Shown: positions 2,764 through 51,788 of the stretch, in pieces
Layout: the number at the start of each line of letters is the position of its first letter
How positions within the stretch are numbered: the stretch's first letter is position 1
DNA from: a virus
IMG/VR virus record: IMGVR_UViG_3300017917_003510
Coordinates: 1 to 58,142 of that record
Reading direction: 5' to 3' (one strand)
DNA: 58,142 bases
Position numbers and translations under genes: made by a program
The notes under the pieces: model-generated
What the model was told of the DNA's origin: nothing
Databases searched by the model: none
What the model saw: only the letters and a program-made list of their open reading frames with translations

Positions 2764-3001
2764 ATAATTTGTAACACTCTCCGCTATGCTTTTAGACGCC
2801 GTCGCAGGGCGAATGAAGAGTGTGTATTAAAGCAGACTACTCATTAACTTGACTGCTCGGCAATCTGCTTTAATACGCTACCATTTTACGCATCTAGGTT
2901 ATCGCCCTAGACTTACCATCCGGTAGGCCGCCCACATTAGTAGCAGGATGTTTTGAGTGCCCTGCAGGGTCGCGTTCCCTATCGCACTTTACTGCTGAAC
3001 A
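2764..3001 (-). ncRNA. multi-hairpin structured RNA upstream of tRNA-Tyr
   Basis: This 238-nt stretch without a plausible ORF is rich in helices. There is a perfect 13-bp stem (2824-2836 with 2864-2876) around a 27-nt loop, AC-rich 7-bp ends (2774-2780 with 2817-2823) around a CGCC/GGCG hairpin, a TCTAGG/CCTAGA hairpin, and three nested stems (2942-2946/2992-2996, 2956-2960/2984-2988, 2966-2969/2977-2980). It could be one or more stable RNAs, or processing signals. Confidence 0.5.
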
Positions 3002-3175
3002 TTACGCATCAGTATGCCACAATGGACAAGCCTTTAAAGCATTATAATGCGCTTCTGCTCTTTCAAACTTATCTTGAATAAGTTTGCGAGTCTGTTCTTC
3101 TGTTAGTCGAAAAGCAGAATCGTAAGCCTGTTCAACAATTTTTTCTTTAATTTTTGTATAATCTATCTGTTCCAT
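3002..3175 (-). CDS. small hypothetical protein
   Basis: A 57-residue ORF beginning MEQIDYTKIKEK and ending CPLWHTDA, predicted helical and highly charged. It has an AGGA Shine-Dalgarno about 7 nt before the ATG. It lies just downstream of the terminator at 3190-3227 and starts the part of the operon that leads into the tRNAs. Function unknown. Confidence 0.65.
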   Translation of the reverse strand: MEQIDYTKIKEKIVEQAYDSAFRLTEEQTRKLIQDKFERAEAHYNALKACPLWHTDA

Positions 3176-3893: not shown

Positions 3894-4534
3894 AGGAACT
3901 TTATTAGATCATTAAATTTAGGCTTTTGAGTTCTGTTGATATCGATCTCTAACTCGGGATCAGTGTTTGAGTAATCATATCCAATCCTTTTACCTGACTG
4001 ATCATAGATGCCTCTGCGTACTCTTTGATCGGCAGTGGCGTATCCTAAGCCTAACATCATTGTACAGACAACATCGGACCTATGTAGATATTTTGAAATC
4101 TCAGCGCCGTTAAAGGTTGCATTGAATCCAGTAGCTAATCCTAGCTCTGCTGCTGCGCACATGGCTGTTGTTGCACTTACTATAGTATCTACTCGATTTC
4201 TAAGGTTAAGATCTTCTAGATCATTATGGTTTTCTTTTTTTGAAAGGTATAGTAACAGCACCGGAGCAAGAACTTGACCGTTGAATCTTTTATCATCTGC
4301 ACCGTCTTTGGTTAGTGCTCCTTCAAAGCACCAGGTATTCTCATCATAGAGCCATTGTTTAAACTTTTTTCCTTCCTCGCTATCAGTTACAGCTAGAATT
4401 TCATACCGATATACGCCTTGCTTAGATGGGGCGAGATAAGCTGCTTCTAATACAGCGTTGATTTTTTCCGGTTCGACGGGTTTAGGATCCCACCACTTTG
4501 CTGTGAAGCGGTGCTTTAAATGTTCCTTGAGCAT
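3890..4534 (-). CDS. nitroreductase family protein (FMN-dependent)
   Basis: A 214-residue protein with the nitroreductase pattern: an N-terminal RFTAKWW stretch, EAAYLAPSKQG (phosphate/FMN-contacting region) near residue 35, and a C-terminal ATGFNATFNG and MMLGLGYA region typical of the FMN-binding fold. Such enzymes use NAD(P)H and FMN to reduce or oxidise small molecules, and some act in natural-product tailoring. It overlaps the next gene by four bases and its upstream neighbour by 53. Its substrate is unknown; context suggests a role with the adjacent oxygenase and radical SAM genes. Confidence 0.85.
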   Translation of the reverse strand: MLKEHLKHRFTAKWWDPKPVEPEKINAVLEAAYLAPSKQGVYRYEILAVTDSEEGKKFKQWLYDENTWCFEGALTKDGADDKRFNGQVLAPVLLLYLSKKENHNDLEDLNLRNRVDTIVSATTAMCAAAELGLATGFNATFNGAEISKYLHRSDVVCTMMLGLGYATADQRVRRGIYDQSGKRIGYDYSNTDPELEIDINRTQKPKFNDLIKFL

Positions 4535-5102
4535 TAAAATTTTCCAATGGCCATCTAGGCAATAAACTTAATTGTTGGAAAAAACGAAATACATCTAATT
4601 TCCAAACAGTCTGTTCGATTCCTCTATATAAAATAGTCCCGCAGTTTTTTAATGTACCTATTTTTTCTAAGGCTGGGCAATAGATATTATGCACCAGTCG
4701 TTGGGAACCAGTTTTAGATTCGTTACTGGTAATATATAGATTATTTTGAGGTTTTGCCCAACCTATACATTGAGGAATGAAATATTGTGCAGTGATATTT
4801 TGATGTTGTTGTATTGTTTTTGATACAGTTCTTAAATATCCGTCAGGGGTTTGATCAGTCAGCACACAGGTTCTAGCACAAATTCTATAACTGTTTGGGC
4901 CCATCTCGTCGAAACTATGAGCTGCAACAGAACCCACTGCTTGATCTTTATAATAGAGTATCCATACTTGTTTTTCTCTTTCGTTATCGAGAGAATCGAC
5001 CAACATTTTTTTACTGCTGTTGTTGTGATATCCCTTTTCTTCTGCACGACGATAAAAGTCAGTGAGATCTAAGTCATCTGAATATGTTGTTATACTATAC
5101 AT
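4482..5102 (-). CDS. acyltransferase-like (GNAT-type) protein
   Basis: A 206-residue protein whose first half fits a GNAT-like core: QVWILYYKDQAVGSVAAHSF, then a beta-strand-rich segment. A second half includes QYFIPQCIGWAKP and NLYITSN motifs. The assignment is by pattern only and is weak. The ATG at 5102 was preferred to an in-frame TTG at 5120. It overlaps the upstream gene by 8 bases and runs 53 bases into the nitroreductase-like frame, so the genes are probably translationally coupled. Confidence 0.7.
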   Translation of the reverse strand: MYSITTYSDDLDLTDFYRRAEEKGYHNNSSKKMLVDSLDNEREKQVWILYYKDQAVGSVAAHSFDEMGPNSYRICARTCVLTDQTPDGYLRTVSKTIQQHQNITAQYFIPQCIGWAKPQNNLYITSNESKTGSQRLVHNIYCPALEKIGTLKNCGTILYRGIEQTVWKLDVFRFFQQLSLLPRWPLENFNAQGTFKAPLHSKVVGS

Positions 5103-5664
5103 TTTTAAAATAAGGTCCAAAAATTTCTAACGATCTGGTCCAATCTAATCTTTTAGACGCAGATTTTTCTTTTAAAACTATACTTACACACCATCGTGGG
5201 TGGTCTGTGGGATTCTTGACATCATGCAGTACGCTTACATTTACAAGACTAGGCTTTCCTACTCTTGCTGAATATACAAGATCACAGTCTTCTCTAGCGC
5301 AATCCCAATAAAGACCACCTATTGGATTATCTTGTTTGATTAACTCGGTTCCCGGTTTAGGCAAATACCAATTCATCCAGGTTTCGCCTTGGTCGTAGAT
5401 CCAATTTATCTTAGAGCAATTAGGAGGATCGATCTCATCGCTGTGTAAAAATATTCCACTGTGTGGTGCCGAATAAAAAATTTCCGAATATCTAATTTCT
5501 AAATCGTTAGCATCCACCCAATTTAAAAATTCGTCGGCGAGGTCTTCCGCTGGCAGATAAAATTGAGCAGCAGGTTTATCCTTGACGTCTAATTTGTCAA
5601 AATAATTAAGATCTTTTAAGATGTAATCTTGACCTATATCAAGATCTACGAAATATTGATTCAT
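5095..5664 (-). CDS. 2OG/Fe(II) oxygenase-like protein
   Basis: A 189-residue protein with a non-heme iron triad: HSD (H74, D76), a distal H (H147 or H156) and R158 for the co-substrate, in the order expected of double-stranded beta-helix oxygenases. It resembles the protein at 6910-7491 (LPAE...FLNW...D-LE and a matching C-terminal strand), so the two are paralogues. It is ATGA-coupled to the upstream aspartyl-hydroxylase-like gene and ends in UAG. The substrate is unknown. Confidence 0.75.
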   Translation of the reverse strand: MNQYFVDLDIGQDYILKDLNYFDKLDVKDKPAAQFYLPAEDLADEFLNWVDANDLEIRYSEIFYSAPHSGIFLHSDEIDPPNCSKINWIYDQGETWMNWYLPKPGTELIKQDNPIGGLYWDCAREDCDLVYSARVGKPSLVNVSVLHDVKNPTDHPRWCVSIVLKEKSASKRLDWTRSLEIFGPYFKNV

Positions 5665-24901: not shown

Positions 24902-24930
24902 ATTATACTATCATTCTTCTTCCTCGTCAA
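24902..24930 (-). promoter_or_regulatory. sigma-70 promoter
   Basis: TTGACG, 17 bp, TATAAT on the minus strand, overlapping the 3' end of the gene at 24911. It would drive the operon from 24868 to clpP. Confidence 0.75.
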
Positions 24931-25510
24931 GATCTTCATCATACATATCTTCTTCCCAAACGAAGTCTTTGTTTTGATTTTTTGGATCATCGTACCATTT
25001 GTAGTAGGCTTCGTTTGGCATCAGCACCCGAAATGTAGTGTTGGCCATACTTAATGCTAACATAGTAAATTGGGCTTTGTCAAAGATATCTGTGATATAG
25101 AATGTTGATGAACAGGCACCGCCTATGCCTTTAAACGGACCATGGCGAACATTCTGCTGAGAGATCTTTTCTTTGAGTTTCCAAAAGTCCTCGCCTTCTT
25201 TGACAATGATTCGAGTGTATCCCTTCTTTTGATTCCGGATACGGAATTTATCGACTAAGGTTAGTTTGGAAATTGTAGCACAGTTATCTTCTCCAATTAC
25301 GAGAAGACAGTCTTTGATCTTGATGCTACCTTTGGTATGTGAGTTGTCGGGAGTTTCTTTTGTAGTCCAGGGTATTTCACATGTGACATGATTGACATAA
25401 TAACTCTCTCCCTGAGTCTTGAGGATCCACATTGGAACTGAGTCATCCTCTAAGTGCTTCTTGTTGAAATGAAACACTACATCTTTACACGCTAATTCGA
25501 TCTATGCCAT
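24911..25510 (-). CDS. conserved phage protein with in-frame UAG at codon 3
   Basis: The best start is ATG at 25510, eight bases after a perfect AAGGAG. It reads M-A-stop(UAG, 25502-25504) and then stays open for 196 codons (I-E-L-A-C-K-D-V-V-F-H-F...), ending in an acidic tail (DEDLDEEEE). Without suppression only a GTG at 25477 with no Shine-Dalgarno could start the body. A tRNA with CUA anticodon lies about 1.1 kb upstream. Function unknown; a tail this acidic could mimic nucleic acid. Confidence 0.75.
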
Positions 25511-25529
25511 TTTGATATCTCCTTAAGAT

Positions 25530-25552
25530 TAAAGTGGGGACTCTCACCCCAC
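25530..25552 (-). terminator. weak terminator-like hairpin
   Basis: GTGGGG and CCCCAC form a 6-bp stem just downstream of the zinc-ribbon gene at 25569. Only a short T-rich tract follows, so termination would be partial. Confidence 0.45.
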
Positions 25553-25568
25553 ATGTATTATAAATTAC

Positions 25569-26321
25569 TTATGCGAAAATTTCAAGTGCTGTTCCACATT
25601 CGACACAGAACTTAGCAGTTGCTTTATTCTGCTTGCCACAGGTTACACACTTTGGTTTGTGCTTGACTGTGACTGCTTGTTTAACAGCTTCGCCGCCTAA
25701 CAGTTTAAACACCATACTATGCTTTTCGGATTCCAAAGCACCTACATAAGTTGTAGAGAACTTTTGATCACTGCGACTACCTGGAACAGTGATGCCCGCA
25801 TCGTTTAATAGGCTGTGAGCACTATTCACCGAAGTAGCATCATACGATGCTGTAGAACAGGTCACAGAACCTGCCGGGCCTGCCCAGTCGCCGGTGGAAC
25901 TGCGAAGGATCCCGCCCTGTGGATAGATACTACCGGAAATGTTTGAGGTGTTCCAAACGATAGGGCGTGGAGGCTGTTCGAACTGGAATTCTACCCTTAC
26001 AATCCCGTCTTCGATCCCGACTCCACGATGTTGCTCCACGGCTGTTGTACGCTCGATGAATTTAAATCGATTACCTTCTCTGAGGTTGCCGTTTTTGACT
26101 GATCGTTCGAGGTCGATTTCCCTACCAGGATCCAATACGATGCCACCAGGGACCATATCATCACCGTCAATGAAAATATTAACAACAGCACGGGTCGTAT
26201 TAAGATTCTTAAGTAGTATCGAGTATTCTGATCCAAATGGAACATAAACTGAGTCTTTGAATTCGCGGAGTACTTTGCCCCCGACTTTTATGGCCGCAGC
26301 CATCTTTGATGCGTACATCAT
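25569..26321 (-). CDS. virion-type protein with C-terminal zinc ribbon
   Basis: A 250-residue protein. The body is beta-rich and Gly-rich (GGKVLREF, VPFGSEYSILLKN, GGIVLDPG), as in decoration-type phage proteins. The last 30 residues hold CVTCG and CVECG, a four-Cys zinc ribbon. Start ATG-ATG behind GGAGAAACC. T4-like phages encode proteins of this layout with unknown roles. Confidence 0.75.
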   Translation of the reverse strand: MMYASKMAAAIKVGGKVLREFKDSVYVPFGSEYSILLKNLNTTRAVVNIFIDGDDMVPGGIVLDPGREIDLERSVKNGNLREGNRFKFIERTTAVEQHRGVGIEDGIVRVEFQFEQPPRPIVWNTSNISGSIYPQGGILRSSTGDWAGPAGSVTCSTASYDATSVNSAHSLLNDAGITVPGSRSDQKFSTTYVGALESEKHSMVFKLLGGEAVKQAVTVKHKPKCVTCGKQNKATAKFCVECGTALEIFA

Positions 26322-26399
26322 GGTTTCTCCTTTTTACAGCACACAGACTAAGTGCTTATTGTTTAAAAGTCTGTTAGTATGTCACCTCATGTGACAAAT

Positions 26400-26636
26400 T
26401 TATTTAGCAGCGTCTTTTCTTTCGTCTTTCTGCTTTGACAGGGTTTTCTTTATCTCTTCAATGGCTTCGTGATCGACCACAGTAAATTCTTGTGGATTAT
26501 ATATCTGCCATTTGATTGGTTTCCAATATTTAGAAAACAAATTGTTTAATGCGACAATCATAGCACCCATGATTAAGGCACCTACTGAAAACATGATTGA
26601 ACCGACTACGAAATTAATTGCTGACTGTATTTCCAT
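26400..26636 (-). CDS. small membrane protein
   Basis: A 78-residue protein starting MEIQSAINFVVGS, with one long hydrophobic segment (residues about 7-30) and a charged, Lys-rich tail. The ATG at 26636 was chosen; the frame continues upstream only by running through the tRNA gene. No function known. Confidence 0.7.
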   Translation of the reverse strand: MEIQSAINFVVGSIMFSVGALIMGAMIVALNNLFSKYWKPIKWQIYNPQEFTVVDHEAIEEIKKTLSKQKDERKDAAK

Positions 26637-26648
26637 GATTTTATTTAT

Positions 26649-26724
26649 TGGTGCGCAGAGCGGGATTCGAACCCGCGACACGAAGCTTTAGAGACTCCTG
26701 TTCTTACCACTGAACTATCCACGC
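26649..26724 (-). tRNA. tRNA with CUA anticodon (amber suppressor)
   Basis: A solitary tRNA outside the array. The acceptor GCGTGGA pairs with TCTGCGC (two G-U), the D-arm GTTC/GAAC and T-arm are canonical, the discriminator is A and CCA is encoded. The anticodon stem GGAGT/GCTTC encloses CTCTAAA, with U33 before CUA. Shifted readings break the stem or U33. CUA reads UAG. The amino acid identity cannot be told from the sequence alone. Confidence 0.9.
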
Positions 26725-26735
26725 ACATTTTCCTT

Positions 26736-27536
26736 TTACTTTTTAGGTGGCATCATTAGAGCATTGAAGTTCGCAGGAACAACAATGGTCTGTACCTTAC
26801 CATCTCGGATGCCTTCTGAGATGTTAATCATAGCCATGGCCTGCATATATTCTACAGCACCTTTGTTGGCATTTAGGGCCGCGATACGTTCTGCTTCTTT
26901 CTTAGCAGTTTCTACCTCGACCTGCTTCTTCTTCAACTCGTTTTGAGCTTGAACAAGGGCGTTAGCACTTTCGATGATGTTGTCTGCCGGCATGATGTTA
27001 CGCACCAGTACCTGTTGCACAGTAATAGACTGATCCAATTTTTCATCAGCTAAGGCCTTGATCATGCTTTCGCGGACTTCCTGTTCAATCTGCGCACGGT
27101 TATCAGCCATCTTCAACGACTCATACTTACGAGCAGTCTTGTAGGCAGCGTTACGAGCCACTTGATAGACATAGTTGTACATTAAAAGAATGTCGCCGTC
27201 TTTAGCTCGAGCGTGAAAGCTCTTGTTCTTATCTACCCACATCTCCGCTACACTCTGCGGATTGATAGAATAGATCACAGCCATGTCAAAATCTTTGACA
27301 GTGGAGTTATCTGCGGCAAGGGGAGTAAGATCCACGACATCTACTTGAACGTCTTTGACAGAGAAAGTAAGAACATCACCGATCACAGTTTGATTCCAAG
27401 AACCAGGCAGCAGTTCTTCCTGCTTGACCTGTTTGTCAAAGCCAACTCGGATACCAACCTCACCGGTTTCGATACGAGTACAACCGGTTGCCAAAACTGC
27501 GGCGGCAACAATACTAAGGGTAGCGATACGCTTCAT
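26736..27536 (-). CDS. band-7/SPFH domain lipoprotein
   Basis: A 266-residue protein. The N-terminus is a lipoprotein signal with lipobox LATGC (Cys near residue 19). The SPFH/prohibitin core follows (GEVGIRVGFDKQV, FDMAVIYSI, RNAAYKT). A helical, Lys/Glu/Ala-rich segment (residues about 205-235) is the usual prohibitin coiled coil. It probably sits on the outer face of a membrane and may form rings in the envelope. T4-like phages often carry such genes, with unknown roles. Confidence 0.85.
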   Translation of the reverse strand: MKRIATLSIVAAAVLATGCTRIETGEVGIRVGFDKQVKQEELLPGSWNQTVIGDVLTFSVKDVQVDVVDLTPLAADNSTVKDFDMAVIYSINPQSVAEMWVDKNKSFHARAKDGDILLMYNYVYQVARNAAYKTARKYESLKMADNRAQIEQEVRESMIKALADEKLDQSITVQQVLVRNIMPADNIIESANALVQAQNELKKKQVEVETAKKEAERIAALNANKGAVEYMQAMAMINISEGIRDGKVQTIVVPANFNALMMPPKK

Positions 27537-27722: not shown

Positions 27723-29228
27723 TTAATTTTCTTTCTGTTTTTTTAAGTAAGCATCGAGTTCTTTAAGAGAAAACGTATGCATGGTTTTACTTTTAGTTTC
27801 ATTTAGATATAATGATAAAGTTGTGTCTGTTTCATCTAATTTTATTCTATGAATTTGAAAAAAATCAGAAATAGTTTTTTTATCAAAATGATCAAGCCCT
27901 GCTAAAGTATAATTCCATAACCATTGTCCTGCATATCCCTCGTGGATATCAAAATCAATCTTTCTAGTTAATCTCTGTTTAGCTAAATTAATAATTTGAT
28001 CTGTTCGTTGTGTTCTTGTTAGATTAGTTGTAACATGATTCCAGAACGGAGTGTCTATTCTTCCTCCGCTGTAGTGCAAAGAAATAAAATCAGCCATGTG
28101 ACTATATAATTTGTCAATCCTCTGATTATAAGAGTTTATTATTTCTTCACTGAACGAGGTGTCTTTAGTTTTTCCAAGACAATTTAAAATTAAATCATAT
28201 ATTTGAATAATAGAACAATGAATACTAGTTGCTTGAAGAGGTTCCAAAAAAGCTGAACTAAGTCCTACAGATAGACAGTTTTTGATCCATACTTCTTTTA
28301 GTCTTCCTGATTGAAATTTAATGGATCTACCCTTCGAAACCCCAGTGCGATATCTTTCTTCGAGTTCTTTGATAATATCTTCTTCATGAGCAAATTGATC
28401 CGAATAGACATATCCTCGACCTATTCGATGTCTGGTAGGGATCTCCCAAACCCAGCCACTGTCCGAAGCATGGGCAGTGGTATAAAGATTTTTTTCGTTA
28501 TTGTCGTGCTCTAGAACAAACGGCATACCTGTATTCACAGGAAGATATTTGCTGTAATCAATCCAGGCGGCATTTAGTTTTTTTATTAAAACTTGAGAAA
28601 AACCTGTGCAGTCAATAAACAAGTCTGCTGTTATAATTTCTCCTTGATTAGAAACTAGAGCAGAAATATTTCCTAATTGATCTAGTTTGATATCGACAAT
28701 TTCGCAATCTTTGTGTAATACTTTATTTTCAATACTTTTTTGTTTAAGGAATTCGATGGTCTTGAATGTGTCGAGATGTAAGGCAGAATTTCCAAAAGTA
28801 CTTTTTAATTTATTATCTTTTCCGATATACAAGTCTGTTTTTTTAATTTCCATTAAAGTTCCAAAACGGCTCGCGTAATTAATATTAGTGTCATTAAGTA
28901 TAGAATGATAAAGTAAGAGATCTACTTTAGAATTAAAAGAATAAGTGCCGTCTATAGGAGATAAGAAATTTTTAGAATTCTTATTCCAATTTATAAAATT
29001 AATACCGTATTTTGGAAGAGCATGTGTTTCTTTAAAAATTTCATCGAAATCTAATCCGCATTGTATTAGAGAGTCTAAAAATAATGAGGTCGTCCCTTCC
29101 CCCACACCGATTGATGATATTTTGGAACTATCTATAGAGGTTATATTAATATCGGGTCGATTTTTTGATATTAATAGGGCGGTAAGCCAACCTGCAGTTC
29201 CGCCGCCTACGATAACTATATTAATCAT
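27723..29228 (-). CDS. flavin-dependent (tryptophan-type) halogenase
   Basis: A 501-residue protein of the tryptophan halogenase family. GGGTAGW (8-14) binds FAD. WVWEIP (259-264) is the WxWxIP signature that separates halogenases from monooxygenases. K73 (LPKYG) is placed like the catalytic Lys of PrnA/RebH. All hallmark residues are present, so halogenation is plausible, needing FADH2 from a separate reductase. The substrate is unknown. It overlaps the upstream gene by 8 bases. Confidence 0.9.
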   Translation of the reverse strand: MINIVIVGGGTAGWLTALLISKNRPDINITSIDSSKISSIGVGEGTTSLFLDSLIQCGLDFDEIFKETHALPKYGINFINWNKNSKNFLSPIDGTYSFNSKVDLLLYHSILNDTNINYASRFGTLMEIKKTDLYIGKDNKLKSTFGNSALHLDTFKTIEFLKQKSIENKVLHKDCEIVDIKLDQLGNISALVSNQGEIITADLFIDCTGFSQVLIKKLNAAWIDYSKYLPVNTGMPFVLEHDNNEKNLYTTAHASDSGWVWEIPTRHRIGRGYVYSDQFAHEEDIIKELEERYRTGVSKGRSIKFQSGRLKEVWIKNCLSVGLSSAFLEPLQATSIHCSIIQIYDLILNCLGKTKDTSFSEEIINSYNQRIDKLYSHMADFISLHYSGGRIDTPFWNHVTTNLTRTQRTDQIINLAKQRLTRKIDFDIHEGYAGQWLWNYTLAGLDHFDKKTISDFFQIHRIKLDETDTTLSLYLNETKSKTMHTFSLKELDAYLKKQKEN

Positions 29229-49888: not shown

Positions 49889-49917
49889 AGTTTAACATTT
49901 CTCTGTCTGTGTGTCAA
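49889..49917 (-). promoter_or_regulatory. sigma-70 promoter for hsp20
   Basis: TTGACA, 17 bp, TAAACT on the minus strand, about 60 nt before the hsp20 ATG. It overlaps the end of dnaK. Confidence 0.7.
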
Positions 49918-51788
49918 TCCTTCTTTTCGCTAAACTCAGCATCTACAATTTCTGGTTCTGCTGATGCCTGTTCTTTTTTAGTTTTAGCCTGTGCAATTGG
50001 TACGATAGCAGTGTATAATTCTCCAGCTTTGGTAGTTATATTATCTTTATCGTCACCACGTGCTGCTTCCTCTAATGCTGTGATTGCTTCGTTGATTTTT
50101 GTTTTTTCATCGTCAGTGAGTTCAGATTCTACTTCTTTCATATCTGTTCGAGCAGCGTGTATCTGTGCTTCTGCACTATTGCGGGCTTCAACTAATTCTC
50201 TCTGCTTCTTATCTGCTTCTGCGTTGGCTTCGGCATCACGGATCATCTGATCAATCTGATCTTTACTTAGTCCCGAATCTGATTTGATAGTGATCTTATT
50301 TTCTTTGCCTGTGCCTTTGTCTTTGGCTGAGATATTCATGATACCGTTAGCATCAATATCAAAGGTAACTTCGATCTGTGGCATACCACGACGTGCCGGC
50401 GCGATACCTTCTAGATTAAATTCTCCAAGCAGTTTGTTATGCTGACAGAATTCTCTTTCGCCTTGAAAAACTTTGATAGTAACTGCTGGCTGATTATCTT
50501 CTGCTGTTGAGAAAGTTTGACTAGCTTTGGTAGGAATAGTAGTATTCTTCTGGATGATCTTGGCCATCACACCGCCGAGTGTTTCGATACCAAGACTCAA
50601 AGGTGTAACGTCTAACAGTAGAACGTCTTTACGATCGCCACCTAACACAGCACCTTGGATAGCGGCTCCGACTGCCACTGCCTCATCTGGATTCACATCC
50701 TTACGAGGTGATTTGCCAAAAAGTTTCTCCACTGCTTCCTGAACCTTAGGCATGCGAGTCTGACCACCTACAAGAATAACTTCGTCGATATCTGCGGCAG
50801 TAACTCCTGCGTCTTTCATCGCGATGCGGCAAGGTTCTAAACTGCGTTGAATAAGATCTTCAACTAGACTTTCTAATTTTGCTCGAGTTATTTTTACTAC
50901 TAGATGTTTTGGTCCGGAAGCATCAGCAGTAATGTAGGGAAGATTAACTTCAGTTTGGTTGCTGTTAGATAATTCAATCTTGGCTTTTTCTGCAGAATCT
51001 TTTAATCTCTGTAGAGCCAACGTATCATTTTTAAGATCTACACCTTGTTCTTTTTTGAACTCATCGACTAAGTAGTCCATGATGCGTTGGTCAAAGTCTT
51101 CACCGCCTAAGAATGTGTCACCGTTGGTGCTAAGAACTTCGATCTGTTTGTCACCATCGATGTTGGCGATTTCAATAATGCTAACATCAAATGTTCCGCC
51201 ACCTAGATCATAGACAGCAACTTTACGATCCTTACCGTCTTTCTTATCCACACCGTAGGCCAATGCTGCGGCAGTCGGCTCATTGATGATACGCAGAACT
51301 TCTAGACCTGCGATCTGTCCTGCGTCTTTGGTTGCTTGACGTTGTTGGTCGTTGAAATAAGCAGGAACAGTGATAACTGCTTTGGTAACTGTTTCACCTA
51401 GATAGTCTTCGGCAGTCTTTTTCATCTTGCGAAGAACTTCAGCAGAGATCTGTGGAGGGGCTAGTTCTTTGCCCTGAGCACGAACCCACGCATCACCGTT
51501 CTTTGATTCCATGATCTCGTAAGGCATTAGACCGATGTCTTTTTGTACTGCATCTTCTTTGAACTTACGTCCAATTAAACGCTTGGCAGCATAGATTGTA
51601 TTTTTGGGATTAGTTACTGATTGACGTTTAGCTGTAGCACCAACTAGAATTTCTTCTGCGGTGTATGCTACGATACTAGGCGTAGTTCTAGCACCTTCGC
51701 TATTTTCAATTACTTTGGAATTTCCGTTTTCGATAACGGCTACGCATGAATTTGTTGTACCTAAATCGATACCAATAATTTTACTCAT
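49914..51788 (-). CDS. dnaK: chaperone DnaK (Hsp70)
   Basis: A 624-residue Hsp70. [15 protein letters not shown] begins the ATPase domain, [15 protein letters not shown] is phosphate loop 2, and [18 protein letters not shown] marks the linker. The substrate-binding beta-sandwich and the helical lid follow, ending [14 protein letters not shown]. It has full length and all nucleotide-binding motifs, so it is probably active. Phage Hsp70 is rare and would need DnaJ and GrpE from the host. Its leader carries a ROSE-like hairpin. Confidence 0.97.

Follow-up and report, generated by a model that had tools for sequence, protein, structure and literature searches.

An early in-frame UAG codon and a phage-encoded suppressor tRNA as a probable gene-specific translational gate in large phages

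Introduction

Phages that combine reassigned stop codons with suppressor tRNAs were reportedly described by Borges et al. in 2022. In such stop-reassigned phages (code 15 or 4), a suppressor tRNA encoded by the phage reads UAG in frame, and a role in the timing of late genes has been proposed (PMC9523058, PMC10879173). Suppressor tRNAs are also known from phages XacN1, Atu_ph07, and Summit, for which targets were sought or discussed and none identified (PMC5852040, PMC6102473, PMC9022506). Each terminal repeat of XacN1 contains two CUA tRNAs (PMC5852040), UCA is the only suppressor among the 33 tRNAs of Atu_ph07, with no target named (PMC6102473), and the purpose of the Summit suppressor tRNA is reported as unknown (PMC9022506).

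Here, we analyze a locus on a virus record of 58,142 bases, a fragment of a large phage (the window, i.e., the whole stretch of DNA analyzed), in which a tRNA with a CUA anticodon accompanies a gene that has UAG as its third codon. An original prediction from this DNA held that production of the full-length protein requires the suppressor tRNA, possibly as a switch. Comparison with related phages suggests that the early UAG is read by a dedicated tRNA in an otherwise standard code.

Results

The locus consists of the following features, termed gated gene and gate according to the proposed function.

26649..26724, minus strand: suppressor tRNA gene with anticodon CUA and encoded CCA end (ARAGORN; model R1, 79 bits; family cloverleaf covariation)
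25569..26321, minus strand: gene for a zinc-ribbon protein, between the tRNA and the gated gene (Pfam Zn_Ribbon_1)
25519..25524, minus strand: Shine-Dalgarno sequence AAGGAG of the gated gene (sequence; such a motif precedes 82 of the 83 non-redundant homologues)
25508..25510, minus strand: ATG start of the gated gene (sequence; homologous ATG in UAG-bearing members)
25502..25504, minus strand: in-frame UAG at codon 3, the putative gate, followed by ATC (sequence and homologues)
24911..25510, minus strand: gated FHFNK gene of about 200 aa (alignments A1 and A2; AlphaFold2 model, pLDDT 88)

ARAGORN detects 14 tRNAs in the window. For the tRNA of this locus, which sits upstream of the gated gene in the direction of transcription, the scan returns CUA, in agreement with the original prediction; its label 'Pyl' is based on the anticodon only. 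The predicted start region was likewise read in the sequence, as AAGGAG..ATG-GCA-TAG-ATC followed by 196 open codons up to the TGA at 24911, and the sole start codon ahead of the FHFNK motif is indeed a GTG at 25477 that lacks a Shine-Dalgarno sequence. The zinc-ribbon gene is a recurrent neighbor (41 loci). The same fragment encodes a tryptophan halogenase (27726–29228), an SPFH/Band 7 protein (26739–27536), a full Hsp70 (49917–51788), and an array of 13 tRNAs (93–2226).

The FHFNK protein comprises an N-terminal domain of ~80 aa with WW-like spacing and an ACT/ferredoxin-like C-terminal domain, and its AlphaFold2 model is good. Assignment of the N-terminus to WW domains was rejected as unconvincing (sequence match E 0.05). 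Searches of Pfam, PHROG, and PDB gave no relative; in structure searches, the best PDB match had an E of 4.7e-3 with TM below 0.3, and matches in BFVD were uncharacterised. Scans of bacterial genome contigs for a reservoir of the family also gave no relative.

An IMG/VR search with the protein sequence that follows the UAG yielded 232 relatives. Eighty of them were retrieved, and 79 of these have an in-frame TAG directly before the conserved domain, most commonly in the form ATG-(GCA/TCA/CAA)-TAG-ATT-GAA. With a second homologue set reached from Rhizobium phage RHph_I1_18, the total rose to 141 homologous loci, of which 127 have an early in-frame UAG at codon 3–10 (83 non-redundant at a threshold of 92% identity); the UAG of the window gene is therefore not a product of chance. 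Since isolate genomes and dozens of independent assemblies keep the stop, it is also no read error at 25502–25504. Among the 83 non-redundant members, the UAG is codon 3 in 60, and the +4 base after it is A in 74 and G in 9, never C or T. The arrangement of Shine-Dalgarno sequence, ATG, early stop, and long open frame occurs in 1.14 Mb of related loci with TAG in 86 cases (81 of them the FHFNK gene), with TAA in 12, and with TGA in 8. The homologue of RHph_I1_18 itself begins MSEFM-UAG-NESC and has a tRNA-CUA directly after it.

The FHFNK gene is without UAG at 14 of the 141 loci, and at least 12 of these 14 carry UAG instead on an adjacent upstream gene for peptidyl-tRNA hydrolase 2 (PTH2). 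In a clade with Bacteroidota-type promoters (L187, L193, L194, L196–L198, L201, L202, L204), PTH2 lies directly upstream of the FHFNK gene and starts with M-(T/K/TH)-UAG and then I or V, and roughly 100–250 bases ahead of it lies a CUA tRNA; the UAG is likewise on PTH2 at L072, L205, and L206. At L177 the UAG is lost, with ATG in its place, and at L012 a NUMOD3 homing-type gene (4470–5138) with its own duplicate MA-UAG-IEY start is inserted exactly at the gate.

Over the eight codons after the UAG, 55% of single-base codon differences are synonymous, compared with 18% expected without selection, which by comparison of codons indicates that this segment is under amino-acid selection. Moreover, the stretch from the UAG to the FHFNK motif contains no ATG, GTG, or TTG in 33 of the 83 members, so that translation has to run through the UAG. 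A conserved in-frame stop is thus combined with coding constraint behind it, as in a read-through gene. As regards a possible stimulator in cis, which would act with a near-cognate host tRNA, the base after the UAG is a conserved purine, but a cognate tRNA dedicated to this codon appears to do the decoding. The homologues share the UAG and do not start at the position of the GTG; a start there would have counted against the original prediction. Its view that the full-length protein needs the suppressor is strongly supported by comparison.

UAG serves as an ordinary stop in other genes, ending 7 of 67 long open reading frames in the window and 22 of 345 and 20 of 339 in related contigs of 344 and 364 kb (6–10% of long open reading frames), and the genome is therefore not recoded; the original prediction had likewise held that UAG is not wholly recoded. 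Comparison of the 344- and 364-kb relatives revealed no convincing conserved in-frame UAG inside genes; three in-gene candidates in these two large relatives resemble antisense frames and were rejected. Of the features of code 15, an encoded CUA tRNA is present, and use of UAG as sense codon throughout many genes is not.

A CUA tRNA was found by ARAGORN within the retrieved stretch at 67 of the 83 loci, nearly always upstream on the same strand and often 30–1300 bases from the gated gene, and in each related contig longer than 16 kb that was checked. It was the top match in almost all related contigs, mostly near the gated gene, for a covariance model built from 50 CUA tRNAs, and tRNAs missed by ARAGORN have the anticodon CUA when it is read directly. 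The cloverleaf shows 214 double changes (66 after shuffling) and a covariation score of 0.619 (0.225 shuffled), and T33-C34-T35-A36 is invariant. The tRNA has, as required of an amber suppressor, a cloverleaf of functional type with a CUA anticodon. The tRNA bodies are very diverse among loci, and A73, G1-C72, and U35 are compatible with several synthetases. Pair 31-39 of the anticodon stem is mismatched in 31 of the 50 tRNAs (alignment A3, columns 32 and 40), a mismatch that the UCA tRNA of Atu_ph07 appears to share. Aminoacylation of the phage CUA tRNA and its reading of UAG in the cell are predicted from comparative evidence, namely the selection behind the UAG and the joint change of stop and anticodon described below.

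PTH2 carries the gate also in isolates. The PTH2 gene of Sinorhizobium phage Phosso begins ATG AAG TAT TAG GTT, and the phage has a tRNA-CUA at 446731–446806. In its relative Atu_ph07, PTH2 begins ATG ATT GGC GAA CAC TTT TGA ATT, which places UGA at codon 7, and the tRNA at 430713–430787 has the anticodon UCA; an apparent CUA pattern at 323917 was rejected as a different, interrupted tRNA-like stretch. Ten further relatives have UAG at codon 4–8, eight of them with a CUA tRNA within 8 kb. In these genomes, stop and anticodon change together (UAG/CUA, UGA/UCA), with the UGA/UCA case represented by one isolate. As the suppressor tRNA is >200 kb from the gated gene in both Phosso and Atu_ph07, linkage is not obligatory.

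Gated PTH2 was further found in the uncultured huge phages LR756500, LR756501, LR745206, and LR756511, in Tenacibaculum phage pT24 and L291, and in Acinetobacter phage ME3 (MT-UAG-I, CUA tRNA 0.5 kb upstream), and the PTH2 genes of Serratia phage BF and Cronobacter phage GAP32 begin MTH-UAG and MAQ-UAG, with CUA-type tRNA patterns about 3 kb away. The proteins match PF01981 (E down to 2e-20), some divergent members falling below the cut-off. Ordinary PTH2 starts without a gate were found in XacN1, RAS14, SCTP-2, and phiM12; in XacN1 (AP018399) neither of two PTH2-like genes is gated despite the CUA tRNAs. In the public annotation, the PTH2 gene of Phosso begins too far downstream at an inner ATG (L002, PV764938, 3049) and ME3_195 is shortened (L507, KU935715, 2028), and the PTH2 gene of BF (L505, KY630187, 1986–2309) and the FHFNK gene of RHph_I1_18 (L003, MN988519, about 3980–4222) are unannotated; such late or missing gene calls are due to the early stop.

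Two further arrangements were observed at PTH2. Mycobacteriophages of cluster C (Alice, Cane17, Nappy, Phabba; loci L297 (MF668280 Phabba, 2971–3041), L259, L296, L300) have PTH2 followed by a CUA tRNA, annotated as Arg(tct) in Phabba, and a conserved xTG-TAG-GTG at the PTH2 start, where the Shine-Dalgarno spacing fits the GTG after the TAG. PTH2-like genes also occur near tRNAs with UCA or UUA anticodons (L292, L291, Lak-C1; L292 8421–8493, L291 6000–6070, L299 1740–1812) and are possible opal or ochre versions of the gate.

A protein-unbiased scan for the motif SD-ATG-NNN-TAG-ATT returned at least 80 loci. Among the matches listed, 28 of 80 have at least 100 open codons after the UAG and the rest at most 44; the 28 long loci comprise 18 FHFNK, 6 PTH2, 2 of a third family (L384 and L423, where about 21 bases separate the end of the CUA tRNA from the start region), and 2 others. 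A same-strand CUA tRNA accompanies 18 of the 28 long loci among these matches, and a CUA tRNA 8 of the 52 short ones, most of which encode a leader of the form M-x-UAG-I-..-P-P-stop. Behind the leader stands a third-family gene or a different one, and in some cases PTH2 and then the CUA tRNA come after that. Phage NCTB has a third-family gene without a gate and no CUA pattern. In Stenotrophomonas phage Summit, the leader MK-UAG-VYKPP-stop stands ahead of gene 069, and the suppressor tRNA starts 6 bases after this gene; the form also occurs in DSS3_MAL1, in OLIVR1, and in seven IMG/VR leaders. On a minus strand, a repetitive tail-like reading frame (L386, UAG at 3053) starts SD-ATG-CCT-TAG-ATT and has another TAG at its end; a CUA tRNA was not found at this locus.

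In folding calculations, a hairpin covers the Shine-Dalgarno sequence or start of the next gene in all ten leaders. With a ribosome at the UAG it persists in every leader (-10 to -18 kcal/mol), and a ribosome placed at the second stop abolishes it or weakens it greatly, again in 10 of 10. The drop in hairpin energy is 6.9 to 14 kcal/mol, against a mean of 4.2 (sd 3.1) at 400 random SD-ATG control sites, with simple folding and an assumed ribosome footprint. Judged by folding alone, the leader form, and this form only, has the properties of a translational attenuator.

Discussion

The best explanation of the locus is very probably a gene-specific translational gate to which the phage's own suppressor tRNA is the only key. 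Ribosomes would initiate at the ATG behind the strong Shine-Dalgarno sequence and reach the UAG at codon 3, where translation without the phage CUA tRNA would terminate after two residues. Once the tRNA has been made, processed, and charged, it would compete with release factor 1 for the UAG, decode it, and thus, as a dedicated decoder, allow synthesis of the full FHFNK protein. In relatives, an AUG-x-UAG gate on PTH2 would control a PTH2-FHFNK operon at its first gene. Where the gate sits in a leader, reading of the UAG would carry the ribosome onto the hairpin that hides the ribosome site of the next gene, where a Pro-Pro-stop, which is known to slow termination, would hold it. Comparison across loci shows that the UAG is conserved, that the frame downstream is translated, and that the suppressor is linked and co-varies. 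The gated genes found number one per genome, with UAG an ordinary stop elsewhere. The dependence on the tRNA postulated by the original prediction is strongly supported, and its switch is a matter of interpretation: we lean slightly towards an AND-type device for delayed or leak-free expression once the phage suppressor tRNA accumulates. It is also reasonably likely that phages of many hosts share a kind of control not described before, in which a suppressor tRNA devoted to this purpose reads an early stop in one gene or in a Pro-Pro-stop leader, so that the phage's tRNA itself is the signal that opens translation-related genes, and the stop/anticodon pair is swappable.

The UAG could alternatively gauge release factor against suppressor, so that PTH2 or FHFNK as output mends trouble from weak termination or suppression, similar to the RF2 frameshift. 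PTH2, the recurrent output, recycles peptidyl-tRNA, the two-codon minigene belongs to a known source of peptidyl-tRNA drop-off, and the leaders end in Pro-Pro-stop, all of which would suit such a sensor. Most genomes with only FHFNK, however, are without PTH2, and the exchange of stop and anticodon for UGA/UCA in Atu_ph07 argues against a sensor of RF1 alone; we consider this proposal rather unlikely. Still less probable is a single origin of the early stop next to a suppressor tRNA, after which it was retained, without regulatory value, since the tRNA is always present. A nonsense codon at a dispensable N-terminal position would be cheap under a constant tRNA supply, and the lineage of L177 did lose its UAG, but recurrence of the gate in three protein families as well as in leader peptides, the purine after the UAG in all FHFNK cases, and the joint change of stop type and anticodon in Atu_ph07 are at odds with a mere relic.

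That the UAG genuinely ends a two-codon leader, with the protein initiated at the GTG behind it or at another internal start, is highly improbable, and for the FHFNK family as a whole already refuted. A GTG precedes FHFNK in the window and in many homologues, some with a weak AAGG ahead of it, but this start is missing in the 33 members mentioned above, residues from the UAG to FHF are under purifying selection, and the stop that is kept is UAG, not UAA or UGA, with a CUA tRNA linked to it. Recoding of the whole genome (code 15, UAG = Gln), known from some gut phages, would account for the CUA tRNA but has practically no chance of being correct, as it is already refuted by the stop usage and finds no support in the comparison of the two large relatives.

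The gate system is much wider than the window and apparently undescribed: a literature search, with bioRxiv and most subscription journals outside its scope, retrieved stop reassignment, orphan suppressors, and a synthetic equivalent but not the gate. It offers a likely purpose for phage suppressor tRNAs without a known target under the standard code, with testable targets in the isolates Phosso, Atu_ph07, RHph_I1_18, ME3, pT24, Summit, and DSS3_MAL1, and it connects suppressor tRNAs to peptidyl-tRNA hydrolase. A stop codon can, in this manner, act as a private lock within an otherwise standard code, and the gate is a source of natural parts for tight expression control.

Comparison with known systems

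The gate shares with code 15 and code 4 phages a phage-encoded suppressor tRNA that reads in-frame UAG. In those phages, however, many genes contain many UAGs and UAG is no longer a stop, whereas the gate is confined to a single gene or operon in each genome, occupies a fixed position next to the start codon, leaves UAG ordinary elsewhere, and also has UGA/UCA and leader-peptide versions. Orphan suppressors are the same tRNAs as those of the gate, which now provides likely targets for Atu_ph07 (PTH2) and Summit (leader), but not for XacN1. In the TnaC, ermC, and cat attenuators, the position of the ribosome on a leader decides on a hairpin over the next ribosome site, and Pro-stop slows termination; the leader form differs in its trigger, a suppressor tRNA reading an early stop in the leader. 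The prfB (RF2) frameshift resembles the gate in that an early in-frame stop controls a translation-related gene, but it uses a +1 frameshift instead of a dedicated tRNA, and RF2 is what is sensed (PMC12421855). A synthetic feed-forward leak dampener based on a suppressor tRNA follows the same logic, with gene and tRNA both required, and is engineered where the gate is natural (PMC7969014). Pyrrolysine and selenocysteine insertion also employ a CUA or UCA tRNA that decodes a stop; the tRNAs of the gate, in contrast, are ordinary cloverleafs with a canonical fold.
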